Source: an uncultured Maribacter sp. (GTDB lineage Bacteria > Bacteroidota > Bacteroidia > Flavobacteriales > Flavobacteriaceae). From it: DNA of 64,000 bases. Under the pieces are notes generated by a model. It was not told the DNA's origin, did no database searches, and saw only the letters and a list, made by a program, of their open reading frames with translations. Positions 1 through 13,244 of the stretch are shown one piece after another. Made by a program: the position numbers and the translations under genes. The stretch covers positions 124,001 through 188,000 of the forward strand of contig NZ_CANMBB010000005.1 in the NCBI RefSeq assembly GCF_947495965.1. Reading direction: 5' to 3'. Numbering within the stretch: the stretch's first letter is position 1; each line of letters starts with the position of its first letter.

Positions 1-1785
1 AAAAGTCATTGGTAACTTACCACTTGGGTTATAATCGCCATACAACACTTGAGCAATTGCATTACCACTTTGCGTACCTAAATGCCATGCTTCTACAATG
101 GAAGGTATATTTTCATTAGCCCAATTAATAGCTAACGGACGACCGTTCATTAAGACCAAAACTATATTTTTATTTACTTTATAAACAGCTTCTAAAAGTT
201 CCTGTTGTAATCCTGGCAAATCTAAATTTGTTCTACTTCTTCCTTCTCCAGATTGAAAACCGTTTTCTCCTAAAACTAGTATAACCACATCATTTTTTGC
301 AGCTAAAGCAACTGCTTCTTTTATACCCGCTCTGTCCGTTTTATTTATTTTTGTTTCTAATGTAAAATCTGTTTTTCCATGGGCTAAGACTACCCCTTTT
401 TCATAAGAAATTTTATTTCCTTTATACGCATTTAAACCTTCTAAAACAGATACTGCTGTATTATCATCTGCAGCTATTCGCCAACTTCCAAGTGGACTAT
501 TCTTATCTTGAGCTAAGTCTCCTATTACTGCAATTTTTTGCCCTTTTTTAGGCAAAGGAAGTAATTGTTTTTCATTTTTTAAAAGAACAATAGATTTCTT
601 AGCCATGTCTAATACCTCAGCTTGGTTTTTAGCACTCCCAATTTCCTCCTTCTCTCTTTTTTCATCACAATACAAATATGGATTATCAAAAAGCCCTAAC
701 TCATACTTAACAGTTAAAATTCTTTTTACCGCATCGTTTATCTTTTCTACATCTACTTTTCCACTACATACTAAAGCTTCTAAATGATTTACGTACGCAT
801 AGGATTCCATATCCATATCAGAACCGGCATTTACTGCAATTGCACTTGCTTGAGTTTTATTTTCTGCATATCCATGCTCTATCATCTCATTAATAGATCC
901 CCAGTCCGAAACTACAAACCCTTTATAATTCCATTCTCCTTTTAAAACATCTCTTTGTAAAAAAGAATTACCAGTTGCTGGCACTCCATTAAGCTCATTA
1001 AAAGAATTCATAAAAGTTTTTACATCTGCATCAATTGCCGCTTTAAATGGAGGAAAAATCACATTACGTAATGTTGCTGTACCAACATCTACGGTATTGT
1101 AGTCTCTACCAGATTCTGAAAAACCATAGCCAGCAAAATGTTTAGCACAAGCAGCAATAGTATACACAGCACTTAAATTATCTCCCTGAAAACCTTTTAC
1201 TCGTGCATATGCAATTTTACTTGCTAAATAAGTGTCTTCTCCTGCACCTTCCATTACACGTCCCCAACGAGCATCTCTAGAAATATCTACCATTGGTGCA
1301 AATGTCCAATTTATACCACTTGCAGCAGCTTCTCTTGCAGCAACCTCAGCCGATTTTTTAATAGCATCCATATCCCAACTAGCAGCTTCTGCTAAAGGAA
1401 TTGGGCTAATTGTTTTATAGCCATGAATAACATCAAAACCAATGATTAAAGGAATGCCTAATCTTGTTTCTTCTACGGCTATTTTTTGTACACGCCTTAC
1501 TTCTTCTACACCACGAACATTTAGCATAGAACCTACTTGCCCAGATTTTAAATTGTCGTATTTTTTTGCTCCATCTCCTTCTTTTGGGCTAGGCCCTGTA
1601 ACATTCCAAAAGCCATTGTACTGGTTCATTTGACCAATTTTTTCTTTTAGAGTCATCTTACTTAAAAGAGATGCCACTTTTTGTTTAATTTCTTCTTTAG
1701 AATCCTTATTGCCTCCCCTTTTTTCTTGTGCATTTATATTGCATAATAAAAATATAAAACACAGTGTTACAATTTTTTTTTTCAT
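1..1785 (-). CDS. GH3 beta-glucosidase (BglX-like), partial at the left edge
   Basis: An open frame runs without a stop from the ATG at 1785 to the window edge, giving 595 residues. The start carries a signal peptide (MKKK, hydrophobic core, cut after NINA), so the enzyme is exported. The N-terminal (alpha/beta) barrel of glycoside hydrolase family 3 is clear: IGFDVIHG, KHFAGYG, and the nucleophile motif FVVSDWGS with Asp at about residue 294. The second domain follows with GENGFQSGEGRSR, which in this family usually holds the acid/base Glu, and the visible part ends at NPSGKLPMTF. Family members are about 750 residues, so some 150 are missing. It is the last visible gene of the glucan locus and probably turns oligosaccharides released by the GH16 enzyme into glucose. 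Family is certain; exact linkage preference is inferred from context. Confidence 0.93.
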   Translation of the reverse strand, partial: MKKKIVTLCFIFLLCNINAQEKRGGNKDSKEEIKQKVASLLSKMTLKEKIGQMNQYNGFWNVTGPSPKEGDGAKKYDNLKSGQVGSMLNVRGVEEVRRVQKIAVEETRLGIPLIIGFDVIHGYKTISPIPLAEAASWDMDAIKKSAEVAAREAAASGINWTFAPMVDISRDARWGRVMEGAGEDTYLASKIAYARVKGFQGDNLSAVYTIAACAKHFAGYGFSESGRDYNTVDVGTATLRNVIFPPFKAAIDADVKTFMNSFNELNGVPATGNSFLQRDVLKGEWNYKGFVVSDWGSINEMIEHGYAENKTQASAIAVNAGSDMDMESYAYVNHLEALVCSGKVDVEKINDAVKRILTVKYELGLFDNPYLYCDEKREKEEIGSAKNQAEVLDMAKKSIVLLKNEKQLLPLPKKGQKIAVIGDLAQDKNSPLGSWRIAADDNTAVSVLEGLNAYKGNKISYEKGVVLAHGKTDFTLETKINKTDRAGIKEAVALAAKNDVVILVLGENGFQSGEGRSRTNLDLPGLQQELLEAVYKVNKNIVLVLMNGRPLAINWANENIPSIVEAWHLGTQSGNAIAQVLYGDYNPSGKLPMTF

Positions 1786-1885: not shown

Positions 1886-3511
1886 TTATTGGTATACCCT
1901 TACATAATCTATCTCCATCGAATCTTCAATAAAACCAGGATCAACAGTACCTCCTAAAGTTCCTCCCATAGCAACATTAAGAATCATAAAAAAGTCTAGG
2001 TTAAATGGTAAATCTTCGGAGTTATTTTGTGTAAAGAAAACCTCATTATCTACTAACACCGTGAGCTCTTTTGTAGTCCACTCTACAGTGTAATTATGAA
2101 ATTCACTTGTAGATGTTGTATTTTCTATAGAAGCTGTTGGCGCATTACCACCTGAATTAGCTGGATAATGAGCAGCTGCAGAAGTTCTGTTTTTATCTCC
2201 TCCTGTTTGTTCCATAATATCTAATTCTCCACAGGCTGGCCAACCCACTGTATCAAAATTAGCTCCTAGCATCCATAAAGCTGGCCAAGTACCTTGCGAA
2301 GCTGGTAACTTTGCTCTAATCTCTACTCTACCATACGTAAACTCATATAAATTTTCTGATTTTAATCGTGCAGATGTGTATCCTCCAGAACCGTCTGCTT
2401 TAGCAATTATCTTAAGCACCCCGTCTTCTACAATTACATTTTCTGCATTGTCTGTATAGGTTTGCAACTCATTATTACCCCAACCACCAGCACCAAGGTC
2501 ATAACCCCATTTTGCAGCATTAGGCGCACCATTAACATCAAACTCATCAGACCAAATTAAATCATCAAAAATAGATTCAAAATCTTCTGGCTCTGCCGTT
2601 GCTTTGGTAGTAGAAAAAATATGATACCAAGCTAAATCTGAATTTAAAGCATCGTAAGTACGTACGTAAAGTCTATCATTTGTAAGTTCTAAAATTTCAT
2701 AGGACGAAGAACCTACATAATACCCCATAAAGCCACCGTCTGAAAAAGTCATTTGCGTACCTCTTGTTTCTGCTTCCGGCACCGTACCATCTGAAGGTCC
2801 TATAGACACATTTCTAGTCCCTGAAGTATCAAAATCATAACAAAAATCAAAACCTTCTGACCCTCCAGCTACAGCTTCATGTGCACCATTAAAATAGGTT
2901 TGCCCATTATTATCTAACTCATAGGTTAATTGGCCTGCGGCATCTACAGAGAATGTTAGTTCATCATCACACAAACAATCCGAATCTTCTGTTCCGCATT
3001 TTTCAAATGCCGCTGCAGCATACCATTTAGCATACCACCAATCTCCATCTATACCTTCCCGTGCAGGTCCTACGCCTAAATGACCAGGTTCTGATGCTGC
3101 TAAATACCACGTTTTTGTAGTGCCTCCTGTTAAAATTTCAATTGCTTCTGGATCCGAAAAATCGCTTCTTACAGTTACCTCAATAGTTTGTGAAGAGCTT
3201 ATACCGCCAGTGCCGTAGGCAACTACAGTAACTAGATAGGTATTTAAACCTGTTTTTGTAAACCTTTTAATTAATTGACCATCAGAATCTATATCCGCAT
3301 CGGTACCATCGTCATACACAAACTTGTAGTTAATAACATTAGTAGCGGTTGCATTAAAACTAACCATTCCAGAACCATCCTCTGTTGGTGTAGCGACAAT
3401 AGAAAGTCCTGTAGGAATCTCTAAAATATCTAGGTTAGGTTCTTCTTCTTGACAAGCAATACATAAAATTGCTAATATAAATGTGTACATAATTTTATTA
3501 AATGTTTTCAT
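1886..3511 (-). CDS. GH16 endo-beta-1,3-glucanase (laminarinase-type) lipoprotein
   Basis: This 541-residue lipoprotein has a signal peptide ending in a lipobox with Cys at about 20, followed by QEEE, an acidic stretch like the surface-export signal of Bacteroidetes lipoproteins. Next come a PKD-like beta-sandwich (about 29-115), a module of about 180 residues that begins with TWYLAASEPGHLGVGPA, and the GH16 catalytic domain (about 315-541). The active-site motif ELDIME places the nucleophile at Glu429, the helper Asp at 431 and the acid/base at Glu434. WPALWMLG and the ending MEIDYVRVYQ are typical of the laminarinase subgroup. It lies 11 bp downstream of the triplicated-module lipoprotein and upstream of the GH3 gene, so cleavage of beta-1,3-glucan at the cell surface is likely. 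Mixed-linkage glucan cannot be excluded. Confidence 0.93.
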   Translation of the reverse strand: MKTFNKIMYTFILAILCIACQEEEPNLDILEIPTGLSIVATPTEDGSGMVSFNATATNVINYKFVYDDGTDADIDSDGQLIKRFTKTGLNTYLVTVVAYGTGGISSSQTIEVTVRSDFSDPEAIEILTGGTTKTWYLAASEPGHLGVGPAREGIDGDWWYAKWYAAAAFEKCGTEDSDCLCDDELTFSVDAAGQLTYELDNNGQTYFNGAHEAVAGGSEGFDFCYDFDTSGTRNVSIGPSDGTVPEAETRGTQMTFSDGGFMGYYVGSSSYEILELTNDRLYVRTYDALNSDLAWYHIFSTTKATAEPEDFESIFDDLIWSDEFDVNGAPNAAKWGYDLGAGGWGNNELQTYTDNAENVIVEDGVLKIIAKADGSGGYTSARLKSENLYEFTYGRVEIRAKLPASQGTWPALWMLGANFDTVGWPACGELDIMEQTGGDKNRTSAAAHYPANSGGNAPTASIENTTSTSEFHNYTVEWTTKELTVLVDNEVFFTQNNSEDLPFNLDFFMILNVAMGGTLGGTVDPGFIEDSMEIDYVRVYQ

Positions 3512-3522
3512 ATGCCTTTAAT

Positions 3523-5616
3523 TTATTCTTTAACAAGTTTATACTGCCAAAACACACCTGAACCCGTACCTGACTCTACATAAGCATTCATGGTATTGTT
3601 GTTGTCTGAAAGCGTTACCATGTATGTTATTGTTGTTGGAACCGCTACATTTGGAAGTTCTCCTTCATTGTTAGCTTTTGGTATTCCTAAATATGCTCCT
3701 TCTCCTGAAATAGTTAAAGTTCCTGCTGTTTCGTCATAAGAATAAGTTGCCGTTATACTACCATCATGAGGAGCAACAGGAACTCCACAAGCATCACTTC
3801 CTCCTTGCCAAGACTCTATCCAAGTATCTGCACCTAAAACATTAGTAAATGAACCGTTTTCTGAGAAAACAAAGGTGTCATCAAAATAACATGCGCGATC
3901 TATAAGGCCTTGTTCATCTACAGAAAACCAACTTGTATCTCCTACTGCAGGCCCAACTCCTAAGGAACCAACCTCCGGAGCCATTTTCCATGTACCAGAA
4001 ATTGGAGAAGCTTCTGGAGCAACATATCTAATTAATTTATACTGCCAAAAAACACCAGAACCTGTTCCTGTTTCTATATAAATATTCATCGTATCATTAT
4101 CTTCAAAAGAAACTGTATACATAATTGATGCTGGTACTGGTACATTTGGTAATTCTCCTGCGTTATTAGCTTTTGGTATACCAACATAAGCACCTGATCC
4201 GCTAACCGTTAAAGCACCTGTAGAAGCATCATACATATAGGTTGCATTTGCTACTCCATCATGAGGAGCAACAGGAGCTCCGCAAGCATCGCTTCCTCCT
4301 TGCCAAGACTCTAACCAAGTATCTGTACCTAAAACATTTAAAAATGAGCCATCTGCCCCAAATATATATGTATCATCAAAATAACATGCACGTTCTACAA
4401 CTCCTTCATCATCTATTGCAAACCAGCTTGTATCTCCTATTGCTGGACCAACTCCTAAAGAACCTGCCTCTGGAGCCATTACCCATGTTCCAATGATTGG
4501 GGACGGTACATCTTTTACTAATTTATATTGCCAAAAAACTCCTGCGCCCGACTCTATATAAACATTCATTGTATTCTTATCTTCTGATAAAGAAGCAGTA
4601 TAGGTTATAGAGGCTGGAACTGCTACATTGGGAAGCTCCCCTTCATTATTAGCTTTTGCAAGCCCTAAATAAGAACCTTCACCAGTAAGTGTTAATGTTC
4701 CCGCAGACTCATCATAAGAATATGTTGCTGGTATAGTACCATCATGAGGTGCAACAGGAGCTCCACAAGCATCTCCTCCTCCTTGCCATGGCTCTATCCA
4801 AGACTCTACTCCTAAAACATTCATAAAAGACCCATTTTCTCCAAAAACATAAGCATCATCAAAATAACAAGCACGATCTATTAACCCTTGTTCATCTACA
4901 GAAAACCAACTTATATCTCCTACTGCTGGACCTACTCCTAAAGAACCTGCTTCTGATGCCATTTTCCATGTACCAATAAAATCACTAGCACTTGCTGTAT
5001 TGGGTGCTTCTAAAATAATATCTTTTGTTCCTTCTACAGTTGCTGCTCCTGCTCCCTTTGCTACAACTCTTATTGTATACTCTCCAGCCATTTCATATTC
5101 ATGAACTGCATTTTCTCCAACTAATATAGAAGTTGGTTCTTCATCTGCAACATCACCAAAATAAACATCAAACATAGTTGCGTTTGTAGCTTCTGGATTT
5201 ACCGTTACTTCTAAAGAATTTGCGGTTACTAATGTACCTATAGTTAAATCTGTTGGTGCAGCAAAAGAAATAATAACTTCTTTACTTAATTCACTTGTTA
5301 ACCCTGTTGCACCAATTGCAACGATTCTTAAATTATAAACTCCTTCGCTATACGTATGTGTTGTTGCATTTCCAGGGGATACTTCTGTAGCGGTTTCACT
5401 ATCTGTATCTCCAAAATAAACTTCAAAAGTTGTTGCTCCTTCTGCGGTTGGAGACACACTTATATTTCCCGAATCATCTTGAGCTATATTAAAAGTGGCC
5501 TGCACATTAACTGGTGCAGAAATATTTTGAAGTGCATACGATGTTTCTTCTTCTGTACATGCATTAAATACAGTCGTTACTATAATAAATATTAGTATTT
5601 GTTTTATATGTTTCAT
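3523..5616 (-). CDS. Surface lipoprotein: two PKD-like domains and a triplicated LGVGPA module
   Basis: This 697-residue protein is a predicted lipoprotein (lipobox NAC, Cys20, then TEEE). Residues about 27-205 form two PKD/Ig-like sandwiches, each with an EVYFGD or DVYFGD strand. The rest is three copies of a module of about 155 residues. Each copy starts GTWxMAxExGSLGVGPA, has RACYFDD and GDACG or SDACG (two Cys, possibly a disulfide), then VAPHDG, KANNxGELPN, and ends VFWQYKL. Copies 1 and 3 are most alike. The GH16 enzyme just downstream holds a divergent copy. Sitting third after susC-susD, it is placed like a SusE or surface glycan-binding protein. I infer glucan capture; no catalytic motif is visible. 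The module itself I cannot assign to a named family. Confidence 0.85.
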   Translation of the reverse strand: MKHIKQILIFIIVTTVFNACTEEETSYALQNISAPVNVQATFNIAQDDSGNISVSPTAEGATTFEVYFGDTDSETATEVSPGNATTHTYSEGVYNLRIVAIGATGLTSELSKEVIISFAAPTDLTIGTLVTANSLEVTVNPEATNATMFDVYFGDVADEEPTSILVGENAVHEYEMAGEYTIRVVAKGAGAATVEGTKDIILEAPNTASASDFIGTWKMASEAGSLGVGPAVGDISWFSVDEQGLIDRACYFDDAYVFGENGSFMNVLGVESWIEPWQGGGDACGAPVAPHDGTIPATYSYDESAGTLTLTGEGSYLGLAKANNEGELPNVAVPASITYTASLSEDKNTMNVYIESGAGVFWQYKLVKDVPSPIIGTWVMAPEAGSLGVGPAIGDTSWFAIDDEGVVERACYFDDTYIFGADGSFLNVLGTDTWLESWQGGSDACGAPVAPHDGVANATYMYDASTGALTVSGSGAYVGIPKANNAGELPNVPVPASIMYTVSFEDNDTMNIYIETGTGSGVFWQYKLIRYVAPEASPISGTWKMAPEVGSLGVGPAVGDTSWFSVDEQGLIDRACYFDDTFVFSENGSFTNVLGADTWIESWQGGSDACGVPVAPHDGSITATYSYDETAGTLTISGEGAYLGIPKANNEGELPNVAVPTTITYMVTLSDNNNTMNAYVESGTGSGVFWQYKLVKE

Positions 5617-5635: not shown

Positions 5636-7111
5636 TTAATAGCCAGTGTTTTGATTCCATCTATTTCCCGCCAACTCTATCTCTATAGATGGTATCGGGA
5701 AAACTTCATTTTTTCCTGCAGTAAACCCATCTATTTCTTGCGCTGCCCTACCTGTACGAACTAAATCAAAAAAACGATGCCCTTCGCCAACCAATTCTAC
5801 TCTACGTTCATTATAAATATCTGTTGTTAAATTAGTTCCCGTAGTGGTAACATTATCTAAGGTAGCTCTTGTACGCACTCTGTTTAAATAGGCTTGGGCT
5901 TGTGTATCATTTGGTGCGGCTTTTCTATTATGTGCTTCTGCTGCCATTAATAATACATCTGCAAAACGAATAGCCCTATAGTTATTTGGGTTAGTTAAAT
6001 TAGCATCCCCCGTATTTAAATCTCCTACACGAGAAATATATTTACGGTTATAATAACCCGTATGCTCATTACCTTCTACATAAGAAACTCCTGCATTTTG
6101 TGCTGCCCAAGATTCAATATCTAATATGGCAACATCTTCTCTAATATCTCCTTCTTCAAAAGCATTAACCACTTCTTGTGTTGGAACATTAAAGCTAAAA
6201 CCAGATTCGAAAAACGGCCCCGTATAATTACGAATACCATTAAAACCTACGGCAATATTACCTTCACTACACTGCAAACAGTCAAAGCCTGCACCTTCTT
6301 CATCTGTATATTGCACTTCAAAAACAGATTCTATATTATTCTCTCCTTCAAACTCGAACATAGCGTTATAATCTGTTACTAAATCATAAGGCCCAGTAGC
6401 AATAACTTCGTCCAGAACATCTGCAGCTTCTGTAAATTTATCTTGGTACAAGTAAACTTTACCTAATAAAGCTTGTGCAGCACCTTTTGTAGCCCTGCCT
6501 ACATCTGTTTGGGTACTTGGTAAGTTTTGTGCTGCAAAAATTAAATCTATTTCAATCTGAGCATAAACATCTGCCTTAGGTGTTCTTTCTACTGTATTTT
6601 GGTCTCCAAAAAGTAAACGCTCATCTACAGACAAAGGAACATCTCCAAACCATTTTACAAGTTCAAAATAATAGTAGGCTCTTAAAAATGTAGCCTCGGC
6701 AATTACGCTCTCTTTTCCTGAAAAATCTGTTTTATCCTTAAACTCTAATACATAATTTGCTCTATTAACACCAGCAAACATCCATCCCCAAATGTCTCTT
6801 ATTTGAGAATTCACTGGTGTATGTATCATGTCATCAACCTCTTGTATTCCAGGTACATCGGTAGCACTTTCACCACCTGCCAAAGTATTATCTGAAGCTA
6901 TTTCTCCTAACATCACATTTAAGTAGGTAGATTGTAATAAATCATAAGCTGCTACTAAGGCGTCTTGATAATCTTCTTCGGAATTAAAAAAGTCTTCGGA
7001 ATTTTCATCAAAAGCATCTACATCTACAAAATCATCCCCACAGGATATAGCTATACAAGCTGATACAAAAAGGACAACTAAAGATTTTATTGTTTTATAT
7101 CTCATTTTCAT
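5636..7111 (-). CDS. susD: SusD/RagB-family glycan-binding lipoprotein
   Basis: The 491-residue product has a lipoprotein signal (Cys24, then GDDF) and the SusD fold: an N-terminal segment with SEEDYQDALVAAYDLLQ, the helical TPR-like part (EATFLRAYYYFELVKWFG, DVPLSVDE, ATKGAAQALLGKVYLY), and the C-terminal RFADVLLMAAEAHNR and NERRVELVGEGHRFFDLVR segments that end most family members. Length is within the family range. SusD proteins sit on the cell surface, bind the polysaccharide and form the lid of the SusC channel. The gene starts 5 bp after the end of the SusC gene, as expected for an obligate pair. Ligand specificity is inferred from the neighbouring GH16 and GH3 enzymes. Confidence 0.95.
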   Translation of the reverse strand: MKMRYKTIKSLVVLFVSACIAISCGDDFVDVDAFDENSEDFFNSEEDYQDALVAAYDLLQSTYLNVMLGEIASDNTLAGGESATDVPGIQEVDDMIHTPVNSQIRDIWGWMFAGVNRANYVLEFKDKTDFSGKESVIAEATFLRAYYYFELVKWFGDVPLSVDERLLFGDQNTVERTPKADVYAQIEIDLIFAAQNLPSTQTDVGRATKGAAQALLGKVYLYQDKFTEAADVLDEVIATGPYDLVTDYNAMFEFEGENNIESVFEVQYTDEEGAGFDCLQCSEGNIAVGFNGIRNYTGPFFESGFSFNVPTQEVVNAFEEGDIREDVAILDIESWAAQNAGVSYVEGNEHTGYYNRKYISRVGDLNTGDANLTNPNNYRAIRFADVLLMAAEAHNRKAAPNDTQAQAYLNRVRTRATLDNVTTTGTNLTTDIYNERRVELVGEGHRFFDLVRTGRAAQEIDGFTAGKNEVFPIPSIEIELAGNRWNQNTGY

Positions 7112-7116
7112 CGCTT

Positions 7117-10100
7117 TTAAAATTTAAGGTTAAGTCCTAATAAATAAGTTCTTGGAACAGGATAAAACCCTTGATCAATACCCGCACCAATTGGTGAACC
7201 AGAGGATGCACTTGGGTCGTAGCCTGTATATTTTGTAAAGGTGTAAAGGTTATTTACAGATACGTAAAACCTAAGTTTATCTATACCAACCCGATCTATT
7301 GTTTTTTGTGATAACGTATACCCTAATTGCACATTTTGAATACGAGCAAAAGAACCATCTTCTACATAAAAGCTAGAAAAGTTAGTGTTAGATGTTGCAC
7401 CAGTAGTTACTCTTGGGTGGGTGTTTGTAGACCCCTCGCCTGTCCATCTATTTAATGTGTATACAGATTTGTTTACTAAGGCCTGGTTACGTTCATAATT
7501 ACGAACAATATCATTTCCGATAGATGCAAATGTATAAGCACTAAAATCAAAATTTTTATAGGAAGCGGATAAACTTAATCCCATAGTTACATCAGCAATT
7601 GGATCTCCAATATCTGTTCTATCATCTGTATCTATAACACCGTCGTTATTAATATCTACAAACTTTAAATCTCCAGGAGCAGCATTAGCTTGAACAGCAT
7701 GTGTGTCTACTTCTGCCTGGTTTTGAAAAATTCCATCGGTTTGTAATCCAAAGAAATACCCTATTGGTTTACCAACTTCCATTCTTGCAGGAAAGTCTTG
7801 ACCAACCCCAAAAGAGCCCCCTGGAACAAATGAAACCCCTTCTGGTAAATTGGTTACTTCATTCTTTAAAAAAGTAAAGTTATAATTTATTCCAAAAGAA
7901 AAATCGTTTACAGGTTTTGGAGAATATCCTACAGCAAATTCAACCCCTGTATTTTCCATACTACCAGCGTTTATTATGGGGGAACTATTTCCGGGAGCAG
8001 CAGCTCCTAAAATACCAGAAACCGGAGTTTCAATTAATAAATCGTCTGTTCTTCTTTTAAAATAATCTGCAGTAATATCTACAGTACTATTAAACAGTTT
8101 AATATCTATACCAAAATCTAGTGTTTTTTGTTCTTCCCATTTTACTTCTGGGTTTGCTAACCTTGAAGCAGCAATACCAAATACTCTTGTGCCGTTTAAA
8201 ACATAAACACCCTCTCCTCCTAATACAGATTGAAAAGCATTACTTTCTATTCTGTCATTTCCTATTACACCATAACTACCTCTTAATTTTAAGAAATTAA
8301 TAAGTTTATTATTGGTAAGAAATTTTTCCTCAGACACTACCCATCCTAAAGAGGCAGAAGGAAAATATCCAAATTTATTTTCTGGACCAAAATTACTAGA
8401 AGCATCTCTACGCATAACTCCGGAAAAAATATATTTTCCTTCATAGTTATATTGTAGTCTTGTAAAATAAGATAATAATGTATTTCTATATTTACCACTA
8501 GCGCCAGATAATTGTAAACCGTTTTCTACATCTTCCGCATCTTCTATATTTGCGGTAACTAAATTAACGTCTTGGTTTTCATCATAAAAACCAACTGTAT
8601 CCCCTGAGAATTGACCACTATTATCAAAAGTAGACATACCCAATAACACGGCTATATTGTGCTTTTGGTTTAAGGTTTTTTGATACTTTAAAAGGTTATC
8701 CCAAGTATTATCTCTAAAAATATTTTTATTGATAGATAATCTGCTTGTATTTAATCCGGCTTCATTTACTCTTATGTTATTAAATACTTTACCTGAACCA
8801 TAAAACAATATTGGTGTAAAGGTTCTATTCTGAGTTTCGGAGTAATTAAACTGAAAGTTAGACTCGAATGAAAAATCATTTAAAAAAGTATATGCTGCTC
8901 CAATTTTACCACTAATTCTATTTACTGTATTAGAATTAAAAGTATCCTCTATTTGCGCAAGAGGATTAATTACTTCATTCCCTAAACCTTCTGCTAAAGT
9001 AAATGCCCCAAAAGTATCTTTTACCGCAAAGGTTGGGGCGTTATTTAAGGCATTAAATAATACAGACCCTATAGCATTTTCTGAAAGTGTTCTTCTGTTA
9101 GTTCCTGTATACATACCACTAGCAGTGATTTTAAAATCTTTAAACAAATCATGCACAACATTAAAACGTGTAGTATACCTTTTAAAATTTGCTTTTGCAC
9201 CACCCACAATACCATCTTGAGTTAATAAAGAGGCCGATGCAGAATAGGTAGATTTTTTGGTACCTCCGTTTACAGATAAATTATGACTAAAAATTGGTGC
9301 TTTTTGAAAAACTTGATTTTGCCAATTTGTACCTTCATCTAAACCTGATAAATTAGGATAAACTATAGGCTCTCCATTGGCAGCAGAAGATTCATTTATA
9401 ATTACAGCATATTCTGTTGCATTTAAAACCGGAATAGTTCTAGAAGTTTCTTGGTAACCACCATAGGCATCATAATTAAATTTTAGTGGCGTAGATTTTC
9501 TACCCGTTTTAGTTTTTATTAGAATAACACCATTTGCAGCTCTAACACCGTATATACCAGCTGTTGCATCTTTAAGTACATTAATACTTTCAATGTCATT
9601 TGGGTTAATAACAGATAAGTCTTCTATAACATTACCATCTACTAAAATTAATGGTCTACTTGTAGATTTACCAGAGTCATCTACATTGTTAGATGAAATA
9701 CCTCTTATATTAATAGAAAGACCTGAACCTGGAGAACCAGAGTTAGAGGTTATATTAACCCCAGCTACTTGTCCTTGCAAAGCTTGCTCTACTTGCGTAG
9801 GGTTTAAATCCTGAATAGTTTCTGACCCAACAACGGTAACAGCTCCTGTAACTTCTTTTTTGCTTTGCGTACCATACCCAATTACCACAACTTCTTCTAA
9901 TGCACTAACATCTTCATTTAAATTAATGTTTAGTACCAAGTTATCTTTAACAACAACTTCTTTTGTAACAAAACCTAAATAAGAAAATACAATAGTGTCT
10001 CCTATATTTACATTAGATAGTATGTAATTCCCATCAAAATCTGTTGTAGTACCATTTACCGTATTTTTAACAATTACGTTAACCCCTGGTAAAGGTTCTT

Positions 10101-10200
10101 TATAAGCCAAGTCTTTTACATTTCCAGTAATTTTAAGATCTTGACTATAAATAAGATTAGTGCAAAACACTAATAAAATTAATAATACAATATGCTTCAT
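7117..10200 (-). CDS. susC: SusC/RagA-family TonB-dependent transporter
   Basis: At 1027 residues this has the full SusC architecture: signal peptide (MKHIVLLILLVFCTNLIYS), a carboxypeptidase-regulatory-like domain at about 22-95 (GNVKDLAYKEPLPGVNV, TDFDGNYILSNV), the conserved EEVVVIGYGTQSKKEVTGAV segment before the plug, the plug domain to about 230 (ESINVLKDATAGIYGVRAANGVILIKTK), and a long beta-barrel ending in a terminal Phe (LLGLNLKF). It imports large oligosaccharides across the outer membrane with TonB energy, with the SusD protein as lid. A 239-bp gap upstream separates it from the regulator gene, so its promoter probably lies there; I found no clear TANNTTTG box in that gap. Confidence 0.96.
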   Translation of the reverse strand: MKHIVLLILLVFCTNLIYSQDLKITGNVKDLAYKEPLPGVNVIVKNTVNGTTTDFDGNYILSNVNIGDTIVFSYLGFVTKEVVVKDNLVLNINLNEDVSALEEVVVIGYGTQSKKEVTGAVTVVGSETIQDLNPTQVEQALQGQVAGVNITSNSGSPGSGLSINIRGISSNNVDDSGKSTSRPLILVDGNVIEDLSVINPNDIESINVLKDATAGIYGVRAANGVILIKTKTGRKSTPLKFNYDAYGGYQETSRTIPVLNATEYAVIINESSAANGEPIVYPNLSGLDEGTNWQNQVFQKAPIFSHNLSVNGGTKKSTYSASASLLTQDGIVGGAKANFKRYTTRFNVVHDLFKDFKITASGMYTGTNRRTLSENAIGSVLFNALNNAPTFAVKDTFGAFTLAEGLGNEVINPLAQIEDTFNSNTVNRISGKIGAAYTFLNDFSFESNFQFNYSETQNRTFTPILFYGSGKVFNNIRVNEAGLNTSRLSINKNIFRDNTWDNLLKYQKTLNQKHNIAVLLGMSTFDNSGQFSGDTVGFYDENQDVNLVTANIEDAEDVENGLQLSGASGKYRNTLLSYFTRLQYNYEGKYIFSGVMRRDASSNFGPENKFGYFPSASLGWVVSEEKFLTNNKLINFLKLRGSYGVIGNDRIESNAFQSVLGGEGVYVLNGTRVFGIAASRLANPEVKWEEQKTLDFGIDIKLFNSTVDITADYFKRRTDDLLIETPVSGILGAAAPGNSSPIINAGSMENTGVEFAVGYSPKPVNDFSFGINYNFTFLKNEVTNLPEGVSFVPGGSFGVGQDFPARMEVGKPIGYFFGLQTDGIFQNQAEVDTHAVQANAAPGDLKFVDINNDGVIDTDDRTDIGDPIADVTMGLSLSASYKNFDFSAYTFASIGNDIVRNYERNQALVNKSVYTLNRWTGEGSTNTHPRVTTGATSNTNFSSFYVEDGSFARIQNVQLGYTLSQKTIDRVGIDKLRFYVSVNNLYTFTKYTGYDPSASSGSPIGAGIDQGFYPVPRTYLLGLNLKF

Positions 10201-10439: not shown

Positions 10440-13244
10440 TTATATTTCTAAAATATAGTTTACTAAGCTTTTTTCATGCTCTAAGCCCATTTTTTTACGA
10501 AGACGATATCTTTTTACCTCTACACTACGTCCAGATATGTTTAATAATGGTGCTATTTCCTTAGAAGAAAGGTTTAGTCTTAAGTAAGCACATAAACGTA
10601 AATCGTTAGGAGTAAGTTCTGGGTGAAGTTCTTTTATTCTTTTAAGAAAATCTTTATCTGCATTATTAAATGCTTCTTCAAAAGTTTTCCAATCATCTGC
10701 ATTATTAATGTTACGATCTATAGTTCTTATAACACCTTTTATTTGTTGCGGCGTTTTTGCTTCAATTAATTGCGATTTAACAACATTTAAAAATTCGTTC
10801 TTTTTAATAATACTCATTGTAGAAGATGCTAATTCTCTATTCTTAGATTTTATTTCATCTTTTAGTTTTTCATTCTTAATTTCTACAATCTTTCTTTCTG
10901 ACTTTTGTTTTTTCTTTTTTAATTTTCTTTTATTTTCCTTTAGCAATAATGCTTCTTGTCTTTTATAATAGCGCTTATATTGTTTGTGAACAATTATAAC
11001 AACTAAAGCAAAAAATAGGGTATAAACCATATATGCTATATATGATAAATACCACGGCCTATTCACTATAAAAGTTTTATTTACTGCTTCCGTTATATCG
11101 TTATTTACCTTTGCTTTTACACTAAAAGTATATTCCCCATAGGGCAAGTTTTCAAAACTTATATCTGTTTTTTTTGTCCACATACTCCACTCTGCATGTT
11201 CCTTTGAGAGTTTATATTTGTACGTAACCTCTTCATATTTATTATACTCCGGCACATTGTAGGAAAAAGAAATGTTATTTTCTTTAAAGTCTAATTCTTG
11301 TATACTGTTAAGAGGCAAATTTTGTTGAAGAACATCTCCTGGATTTTTTTGCATTTTGGTTATGCTTACAGTATATGTTTTTTCTTTTAATTTATTAAGA
11401 TCTAGAGTTACATAACCATTTGATGTTCCTATTATATAGTTATTTTTTGAAATTGGTGTAATAGATTCAAAACCATATACTCCCATATTTTTTCTAAAAT
11501 AGGCTGGAACAGGAATTTCTACAACCTCATACCCATTATTTAGTTGTGATTGGGTTAAACTTAGAATATTATTATCTGAAAAACCCCATAAACGATTATT
11601 TGTAGTATCTGAAATTAAAACTCCAAAAGGAGCAAACTCTCTCTCAAAAAATTTTGGATTTAATTCTTTATCTAAATCAAAGCTCTCTTTATCCTTATTA
11701 AAAGAAAACATACCATCACTAGTAGTGTATATAATTTTATTATTAAAACTTACTAGGCTTGCACCACTACCAAAGGGTACTTGACTCGTTGTTTTCACTA
11801 CCTTTTTAAAGTCTTTATCTAACTGTAATACAAATACCCCTTTATTCTCATGATTAACTACAATTTTAGTGTTATTAACCCATTCAAAAAAACGAGTAGC
11901 AATATCAAAACCTTCAATTTTATTTCTAAAAATCCAAGAATTATCTTTTTTTTCTAAAACACTTATACCTTGGTAATTTCCTTGTAATAATAAATTGGGA
12001 TTATGCTTAAATGCTTTAATATCCCATGTGCCAGGTATATTTGAAATTAATTTGGCTTTCTTATTTGTAATTTGATAAGTGCCATTATTATGTCCACAAA
12101 ATAAATTATCCTCAATTATACGTAATGCCCAAACTTGCCCTTGTGTATTAGGCATAAATTTATATTCCTCTTCTTCATTATTTTTCTTATAAAATACACC
12201 TTGGTTGGTTCCTAAGTATAAATAATTTTTATAAACAATAGAGGAATATACCTGGCCAAGGTTACCTACCTTGTCTATATACTCTTTAAAAGGAGAATTT
12301 AAATTTATAACACAAATACCATTATCTAATGCCAACCACAAGTTATTTTCTTGATCCTCAAAAATGGATAAAACCGTATTATTATTTAATCCTTTTTGCT
12401 GATTTATAGCATTAACTAGCTTTCCATCTTTATTAACCTGGTAAATACCGTTAGATATAGTACCCAAAACAAAACTTTCATCTTGTAACTGTAACGTACT
12501 ATATATATTTATTTTTTTCTTTTTGGAAAGTTTATCTAAATCTGTAACCCAAGGCTCTAATTTTCCATTTTTTACAGAATAAAATTTTCCTTTTTCCGAA
12601 ACAAGTGTTAGCACATTATCTTTTAAATAAACACCTACAATACTATTCTCTTTAATTACAGAATCGTCTGAAACTAATACCGCAGTTCCGTTATCTATTT
12701 TAAAGAGTCCTACTCCACTTTTTTGAAAATAAATAGATTTACCAACTTTAAAAATTTGTGCTCTTTTAGAATTCGAAGCTATTGTTCTTACAGAAGAATC
12801 TTTTGTGTTATATATATAAATTTGATTTAATGACTGAAATAATATCCAATTTTGATATTCCACAATATTCCAAAACTGCTCGTCTTCTATTAAAGAAATG
12901 TTAGACTTAGAAGAAATAGATTGATACTCTAAAACTCCTAGGTTATTTTTTTTCCAGAAGCCAAATTCCATATAGCAACCCGTATATATTTTATCCCCTA
13001 TTGCTTTAACAGAACGTATAACAGAACCGTTTGGCGAACTATAAAGTTCCCAAGTAGCGCCATTAAAAACTAATAGACCACTATTATTAGCAACATAAAT
13101 ATATTTTTCTTTAGATTGTGTAATAGACCAGTTCTGGTTGGCCCCACCATAAGTAACCGCAGAATAATTTTGAATAGGTGGTAACTCTTGTGAGAAGCCA
13201 CAAACAAAAAGAAAATAAAAAAGTAAGAAAGTCTTATGCTTCAA
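10440..13244 (-). CDS. Membrane one-component regulator: beta-propeller sensor, Y_Y_Y domain, LuxR-type HTH
   Basis: The 934-residue protein has a signal peptide, a long periplasmic sensor of beta-propeller type (repeats such as ENNLWLALDNGICVI and NYLYLGTNQGVFY), a Y_Y_Y immunoglobulin-like domain (about 660-725; YKYKLSKEHAEW, LPYGEYTFSVKA), one transmembrane helix (about 732-752), a Lys/Glu-rich coiled coil (about 755-830), and a C-terminal LuxR-like helix-turn-helix (about 872-934; LTPNDLRLCAYLRLNLSSKEIA, RSVEVKRYRLRKKMG). Unlike hybrid two-component PUL regulators it has no histidine kinase or receiver domain, so the sensor appears linked directly to the DNA-binding domain through the membrane. 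It is the first gene of the glucan locus in the same orientation as susC, and probably switches the locus on when sugar binds. Confidence 0.9.
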   Translation of the reverse strand: MKHKTFLLFYFLFVCGFSQELPPIQNYSAVTYGGANQNWSITQSKEKYIYVANNSGLLVFNGATWELYSSPNGSVIRSVKAIGDKIYTGCYMEFGFWKKNNLGVLEYQSISSKSNISLIEDEQFWNIVEYQNWILFQSLNQIYIYNTKDSSVRTIASNSKRAQIFKVGKSIYFQKSGVGLFKIDNGTAVLVSDDSVIKENSIVGVYLKDNVLTLVSEKGKFYSVKNGKLEPWVTDLDKLSKKKKINIYSTLQLQDESFVLGTISNGIYQVNKDGKLVNAINQQKGLNNNTVLSIFEDQENNLWLALDNGICVINLNSPFKEYIDKVGNLGQVYSSIVYKNYLYLGTNQGVFYKKNNEEEEYKFMPNTQGQVWALRIIEDNLFCGHNNGTYQITNKKAKLISNIPGTWDIKAFKHNPNLLLQGNYQGISVLEKKDNSWIFRNKIEGFDIATRFFEWVNNTKIVVNHENKGVFVLQLDKDFKKVVKTTSQVPFGSGASLVSFNNKIIYTTSDGMFSFNKDKESFDLDKELNPKFFEREFAPFGVLISDTTNNRLWGFSDNNILSLTQSQLNNGYEVVEIPVPAYFRKNMGVYGFESITPISKNNYIIGTSNGYVTLDLNKLKEKTYTVSITKMQKNPGDVLQQNLPLNSIQELDFKENNISFSYNVPEYNKYEEVTYKYKLSKEHAEWSMWTKKTDISFENLPYGEYTFSVKAKVNNDITEAVNKTFIVNRPWYLSYIAYMVYTLFFALVVIIVHKQYKRYYKRQEALLLKENKRKLKKKKQKSERKIVEIKNEKLKDEIKSKNRELASSTMSIIKKNEFLNVVKSQLIEAKTPQQIKGVIRTIDRNINNADDWKTFEEAFNNADKDFLKRIKELHPELTPNDLRLCAYLRLNLSSKEIAPLLNISGRSVEVKRYRLRKKMGLEHEKSLVNYILEI

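Follow-up and report, generated by a model that had tools for sequence, protein, structure and literature searches.

A triplicated LGVGPA module in a Maribacter SusE-position lipoprotein appears to be a lipocalin-like glucan-binding domain of the SGBP-B superfamily

Laminarin makes up a large part of marine primary production; a 2024 study attributes to it more than 10% of the carbon dioxide fixed each year (PMC11345257). Two of the described systems closest to the locus analysed here concern this polysaccharide. The first is the Bacteroides fluxus protein SGBP-B (BfSGBP-B), which is encoded at the SusE position and which, in affinity gels and ITC, bound two laminarins and the mixed-linkage glucan of barley, and showed weak binding of yeast glucan (PMC7157763). 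The second is a Maribacter GH16_3 enzyme, for which the 2024 study gives a lipid-site signal peptide, a PKD domain, a BfSGBP-B-like domain and GH16, the same layout as in the GH16 protein of our locus; laminarin binding by its N-terminus was already inferred there from homology to BfSGBP-B (PMC11345257).

The locus lies in a window of 64,000 nucleotides of Maribacter DNA, the whole stretch analysed. Its genes follow one another on one strand in the order regulator-like protein, SusC, SusD, lipoprotein, GH16 and GH3, and are made up as follows.

10440..13244, minus strand: regulator-like protein with a Y_Y_Y domain (Pfam Y_Y_Y 2.8e-9; GerE 7.4e-5, just under cut-off)
7117..10200, minus strand: SusC-like TonB-dependent transporter (TIGR04056, E 2.3e-255)
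5636..7111, minus strand: SusD-like protein (Pfam SusD_RagB and SusD-like_3; best PDB match 6gcz, E 1.6e-67)
3523..5616, minus strand: putative surface lipoprotein at the SusE position, 697 aa (open reading frame directly 3' of SusD; Cys20 followed by TEEE)
5557..5616, minus strand: its signal peptide with putative lipobox, ending at Cys20 (from the sequence; lipobox judged by eye)
4987..5556, minus strand: residues 21-210, interpreted as two PKD-like (Ig-like) domains (two stretches match Pfam PKD_4, E 4.7e-6)
4510..4986, minus strand: LGVGPA module copy R1, residues 211-369, with Cys250/Cys284 (repeat comparison and profile)
4024..4503, minus strand: LGVGPA module copy R2, residues 372-531, with Cys411/Cys445 (repeat comparison and profile)
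3526..4008, minus strand: LGVGPA module copy R3, residues 537-697, with Cys576/Cys610 (repeats; AlphaFold2 pLDDT 92; Foldseek 7KV5, 2.9e-7)
1886..3511, minus strand: GH16 lipoprotein, 541 aa (open reading frame; Pfam Glyco_hydro_16, 4e-21)
3140..3451, minus strand: PKD-like N-terminal region of the GH16 protein (the 7kv5 chain alignment spans query residues 8-300)
2600..3139, minus strand: divergent module copy in the GH16 protein, residues 125-304 (profiles; pLDDT 91.8; Foldseek 7KV7, 3.7e-13)
1889..2563, minus strand: GH16 catalytic domain, residues 317-541 (Pfam and PDB sequence matches)
1..1785, minus strand: GH3 glycosidase, running off the window, 762 aa in the longer contig piece L131 (Pfam GH3 N and C domains)

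The top PDB match of the GH16 protein is 4bq1 (E 1.1e-57), named an endo-1,3-beta-glucanase, and its PKD-like N-terminal region has no Pfam match. Among the best PDB matches of the SusD protein are 6gcz and 7kv1-7kv4, which we take to be SusD-like proteins of beta-1,3-glucan loci. The GerE match of the regulator-like protein suggests a LuxR-type helix-turn-helix. Genes resembling sulfatases and glycosidases occur in the same genome past the left edge of the window, a few kb on from GH3 (L131:2459-7791); judged by eye, they seem to belong to another polysaccharide locus.

The initial annotation of this DNA had described three copies of about 155 residues filling the C-terminal two thirds of the lipoprotein. 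The number and extent of the copies hold, since R1-R3 take up 70% of the protein and the quoted motifs, from GTWxMAxExGSLGVGPA to VFWQYKL, are present in all three, but the length is nearer 160 residues per copy. Over these roughly 160 residues R2 is 69% and R3 77% identical to R1, which rules out chance repeats; the E values of 1e-97 to 1e-102 obtained for R1-R3 come from a profile built from the same copies and are hence no independent test. One Cys pair is kept in each copy (250/284, 411/445 and 576/610), and this pair, conserved in LGVGPA modules, possibly forms a disulfide.

At the nucleotide level the copies within the window are 75-78% identical, with dS of 0.75-0.88, and a very recent triplication is thereby ruled out. 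Their dN/dS is 0.16-0.28, falls to 0.09-0.13 when R1-R3 are compared with the same-numbered copies of Maribacter vaceletii, and lies at 0.07-0.28 when the window copies are pooled with those of two relatives, in the 14 of 18 pairs that allowed its computation. Because these values, which are simple Nei-Gojobori estimates at high pS, are low, all three copies are kept by purifying selection. In the module tree that includes the three window copies, these intermingle with the three M. vaceletii copies (support 0.50), and 9 of 34 two-copy proteins have copies that are each other's exclusive sisters. Re-duplication or conversion of LGVGPA copies is possible. Two family matches to the lipoprotein were taken as spurious, namely DUF3830 on the whole protein (0.0025, 18.2 bits against a cut-off of 26) and the 6-phosphofructokinase model TIGR02482 (22.7 bits against a cut-off of 371).

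A divergent copy had also been proposed between the PKD-like region and the catalytic domain of the GH16 enzyme, and this reading is borne out. Residues 125-304 align over their full length with R1-R3, with TW, LGVGP, W, DD, F, G and a C-terminal W in common. The similarity of the single sequences is weak (GH16 residues 121-263 against R3, BLASTP 8e-5). The comparison of profiles is clear; it used one of LGVGPA modules alone (A3; 76 rows from 90) and one of GH16-type modules (A4; 38 from 45), both after removal of partial modules, X rows and rows more than about 90% alike. Aligned with each other by hhalign, they gave a probability of 96.4 and E 1.4e-9 over 54 columns, in the N-terminal part only. 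At E<=1e-3 the GH16-type profile matched 68 of 102 LGVGPA modules, and at <=0.05 it matched 99; for the LGVGPA profile the corresponding numbers were 22 and 48 out of 71 GH16-type modules. These counts are not independent trials, as the rows are interrelated and partly the profiles' own relatives, and most of the best-scoring stretches span the N-terminal half of the profile. Exact duplicates, X-containing rows and GH16-type profile matches lying on LGVGPA modules had been removed before counting, and the reversed controls at E 0.05 were clean (0/102 LGVGPA and 0/71 GH16-type). Thus, as judged by sequence, residues 125-304 are a divergent homologue of the LGVGPA module.

The two forms of the module are tied to BfSGBP-B by different routes. 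The N-terminus of the GH16 protein (residues 8-300) matches the chain of 7kv5, 7kv6 and 7kv7 directly (E 5.2e-17), as does the GH16-type profile (7kv5, E 4.6e-18). Searches of PDB sequences with the whole lipoprotein (phmmer), with the LGVGPA profile and with a profile of LGVGPA modules plus one GH16 copy (A2) found no match; since the LGVGPA profiles alone miss the PDB, their sequence link to SGBP-B requires intermediates. Such a route exists through L058, a stand-alone SGBP-B-like protein, which the LGVGPA profile reaches at E 5.7e-8 and which alone matches 7kv5 at E 4.1e-9, and a mixed profile of 20 modules (A6) matches 7kv5 at E 6.8e-25. Homology to SGBP-B is therefore detectable directly for the GH16 copy and via intermediates for LGVGPA.

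The predicted models point the same way. AlphaFold2 gave mean pLDDT values of 91.8 for the GH16 copy and 92.0 for R3, and in Foldseek the top four PDB matches of the GH16-copy model were SGBP-B (7KV7, 3.7e-13, TMq 0.75). The top four of the R3 model were likewise all B. fluxus SGBP-B (2.9e-7 to 1.1e-6, TMq 0.62-0.64), in structures that are apo or hold laminaritriose or mixed-linkage glucotriose; the agreement is moderate (rmsd 4.2-4.3, 20-22% identity), and the rows that follow, which start at 3.5e-3, are mostly lipocalins and fatty-acid-binding proteins with a few others. As SGBP-B comes first in both profile and Foldseek searches, the module would be a lipocalin-like barrel of the SGBP-B kind; the predicted models share its fold, and a PKD-type domain in front and a SusE position in a SusCD locus are found here too. 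The profile and AlphaFold/Foldseek searches that the initial annotation had suggested thus lead both module forms to glucan-binding BfSGBP-B. It had taken a match to a known non-binding family as evidence against its reading, and searches of both forms met no such family.

Related loci were collected from named genomes with the patterns GVFWQYK and [IF][IS]GTW[KV]MA, so that divergent members are missed. By their titles, the 47 LGVGPA loci obtained (L007 and L032, two contigs of one MAG, count as two) come mostly from flavobacteria; a Saprospirales MAG and a MAG bearing the label Gammaproteobacteria are also represented. In 43 of the 47 the neighbour upstream is SusD; the misses are L048 and three loci (L007, L030 and L034) whose sequence starts at or just before the gene. 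A GH16-type module is found in the downstream neighbour in 45 loci, in 41 of them joined to a GH16 catalytic domain, the misses being L032, where the sequence ends within the gene, and again L048. Within the genus of the window five of eight genomes carry LGVGPA, the window's own included, and it occurs in 55 of 397 sampled Flavobacteriaceae genomes and 42 of 237 genera (E<=1e-10).

A jelly-roll module (A5), of which two of five aligned members match CBM_4_9, is found in 199 of the same 397 genomes (1e-6), and the GH16-type module in 49 of 198 relatives of genome G072 (1e-6). As the gene before the GH16 protein carries either the jelly-roll or LGVGPA, two unrelated modules fill one slot. Genome G397 encodes one protein with four jelly-roll copies, and the GH16-type profile has no match at E<=0.1 in G397 or in G367. 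A third domain type (DWGQ ... FIDNIYFYK, about 168 aa) precedes the LGVGPA copies in several relatives, at the place of R1 (L003:7993-8496 and L017:8476-8982; also L033, L040, L134, L144, L147 and L152), and two copies scanned had no Pfam match.

Twenty loci picked for unusual lengths were also read, and in 14 of them the LGVGPA gene is preceded by SusC and SusD homologues. The protein of L143, with a PKD domain and one module in 278 residues, has the layout of BfSGBP-B; no glucan gene was recognised adjoining it, the single neighbour scanned being an H+-pyrophosphatase. The beta-1,3 reading gains support from the presence near LGVGPA of GH81 and GH17, both beta-1,3-glucanase families: a GH81 gene adjoins the module gene in L152, and in L139 a distance of about 3.6 to 6.4 kb separates it from GH17 and GH30 genes. 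L139 and the canonical locus L035, whose contigs are equally long, may be one extended region; the LGVGPA protein of L139 is T9SS-tailed and carries other binding domains. Two further architectures do not point to beta-1,3-glucan, namely L138:6190-8475 (minus strand), where LGVGPA occurs with starch/glycogen-type binding domains (AMPK1_CBM, X25 and CBM_48) and a T9SS tail, and L140:6147-8042 (plus strand), where it occurs with DUF4886 and a T9SS tail. On the contig labelled as a Gammaproteobacteria MAG (L048:6156-8934), four LGVGPA copies lie in two open frames, with no SusCD homologues in the 9.8 kb examined; the label may be wrong, or the copies may have been transferred.

In L133:6647-9244 (minus strand), LGVGPA sits inside a GH16 lipoprotein in the order PKD, LGVGPA, CBM_4_9 and GH16. 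The catalytic domain of this enzyme is broken by an A5 jelly-roll at residues 564-708, and those of L114:1063-3222 and L115:1138-3231 (both plus strand) are split by an A5 (CBM_4_9-like) insert of about 140 residues. A catalytic-domain insert is likewise described for the Maribacter GH16_3 (PMC11345257), whereas the alignment of the window GH16 shows none.

On this evidence we assign LGVGPA with good confidence to the SGBP-B superfamily, as a carbohydrate-binding module with a lipocalin-like beta-barrel that in this laminarin-type locus most likely binds beta-1,3-glucan. Since the family's solved member binds laminarin, the module would in all likelihood be a clamp for glucan, of a type already known. 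The lipoprotein would be anchored in the outer membrane and displayed at the surface, with its PKD-like domains as a stalk, and the three tandem modules would jointly hold a single long glucan chain, or several short ones, and so gain avidity. The divergent copy beside the catalytic domain of the GH16 enzyme would hold the same chain during cutting, and the oligosaccharides would then pass through SusD/SusC and be finished by GH3. Homology, the predicted fold and the gene context thus give good support to the earlier proposal that the SusE-position protein and the enzyme have a glucan-binding module in common, with binding itself a prediction from sequence and model.

The alternative that survives best, though we judge it improbable, is that the module binds a glycan but with a specificity away from the linear beta-1,3 chain. 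Its target might then be beta-1,6 branches, the ends of chains, glucan of mixed linkage or some other glucan altogether. The two module forms differ: the His of GHLGVGP is present in 38 of 38 GH16-type modules but is Ser or Ala in seven aligned LGVGPA rows, and the GYYxGSSSY segment is replaced by the long KANNxGELPN loop. Because LGVGPA lacks the conserved His and has this loop instead of the segment, its ligand site may differ, and two forms per locus could serve two target features. BfSGBP-B itself binds mixed-linkage glucan too (PMC7157763), and L138 pairs the module with alpha-glucan-type binding domains. However, the neighbours are GH16 proteins whose best PDB matches are named endo-1,3-glucanases, with GH17, GH30 and GH81 in single loci, and in L133 LGVGPA takes the place between PKD and GH16 that the GH16-type copy usually holds. 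Less probable still is a mainly structural or protein-protein role (a spacer or a SusCD contact) or a small-molecule lipocalin-like pocket, without polysaccharide binding: tandem repeats can serve as spacers, the fold neighbours past SGBP-B are mostly lipocalins and fatty-acid-binding proteins and 1 of 76 members weakly matches Lipocalin_4 (0.0085), but a glucan-binding SGBP is the best fold and profile match by orders of magnitude, the module also occurs without SusCD in the sequence examined (beside GH81 in L152 and in the T9SS-tailed proteins of L138 and L139), and Trp8, Trp68 and Trp155 are present in 76 of 76 members, the counts for Trp8 and Trp155 being biased by the GTWxMA and GVFWQYK patterns through which the loci were found.

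Returning to the glucan-clamp reading, the question of a name arises, as the module had been called uncatalogued. With regard to family models this stands: NCBIfam gave no model above cut-off across the modules of both window proteins, and Pfam gave no match at E<=0.01 on the 38 GH16-type modules and, on the 76 LGVGPA modules, that single Lipocalin_4 match (PF13648) with none above cut-off, so that membership of Lipocalin_4 is rejected for both forms. Identity with the jelly-roll CBM4/9 is also rejected, as CBM_4_9 (PF02018) matched none of the 76 and none of the 38 at E<=0.01 and the A5 profile matched none of 102 LGVGPA modules at E<=10. However, the superfamily is already known from a solved, ligand-bound structure and from measured laminarin binding by BfSGBP-B; what is absent from Pfam is the LGVGPA branch, for which we found no description in the openly licensed papers searched.

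There is a real chance that LGVGPA is already a named family. Zuehlke et al. in 2024 reportedly founded two laminarin-binding families on Christiangramia forsetii proteins, CBM102 on an SGBP said to carry four copies and CBM103 on a GH16_3 enzyme said to carry one. The GH16 copy is probably CBM103, and it is doubtful that LGVGPA is CBM102. CBM102 might instead be the jelly-roll, which takes up the corresponding slot elsewhere. No Christiangramia title is among the 47 named LGVGPA loci. We see an even chance that LGVGPA is a separate, unnamed lipocalin-like family, a mobile flavobacterial clamp that swaps with the unrelated jelly-roll in the SusE-position protein and with a distant cousin in GH16 enzymes; the docking protein of a locus would then share one exchangeable module set with its enzyme. 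An LGVGPA profile would annotate binding proteins in matching Flavobacteriaceae genomes, where Pfam gives one weak match in 76, and would also show unrelated folds filling one slot of these loci. Furthermore, as both module forms are tied to a solved, ligand-bound structure, mutants should be easy to design.

In summary, the closest known counterpart of LGVGPA is the C-terminal domain of B. fluxus SGBP-B (PDB 7KV5, 7KV6 and 7KV7), to which it is homologous and with which it shares the same predicted fold. In both, a PKD-type domain stands in front, and both are placed at the SusE position of a beta-1,3-glucan locus. Unlike SGBP-B, LGVGPA carries a Cys pair and the KANNxGELPN loop and lacks the His of GH(L/F)GVGP, and the SusE-position proteins of the loci read contain between one and three copies of it.
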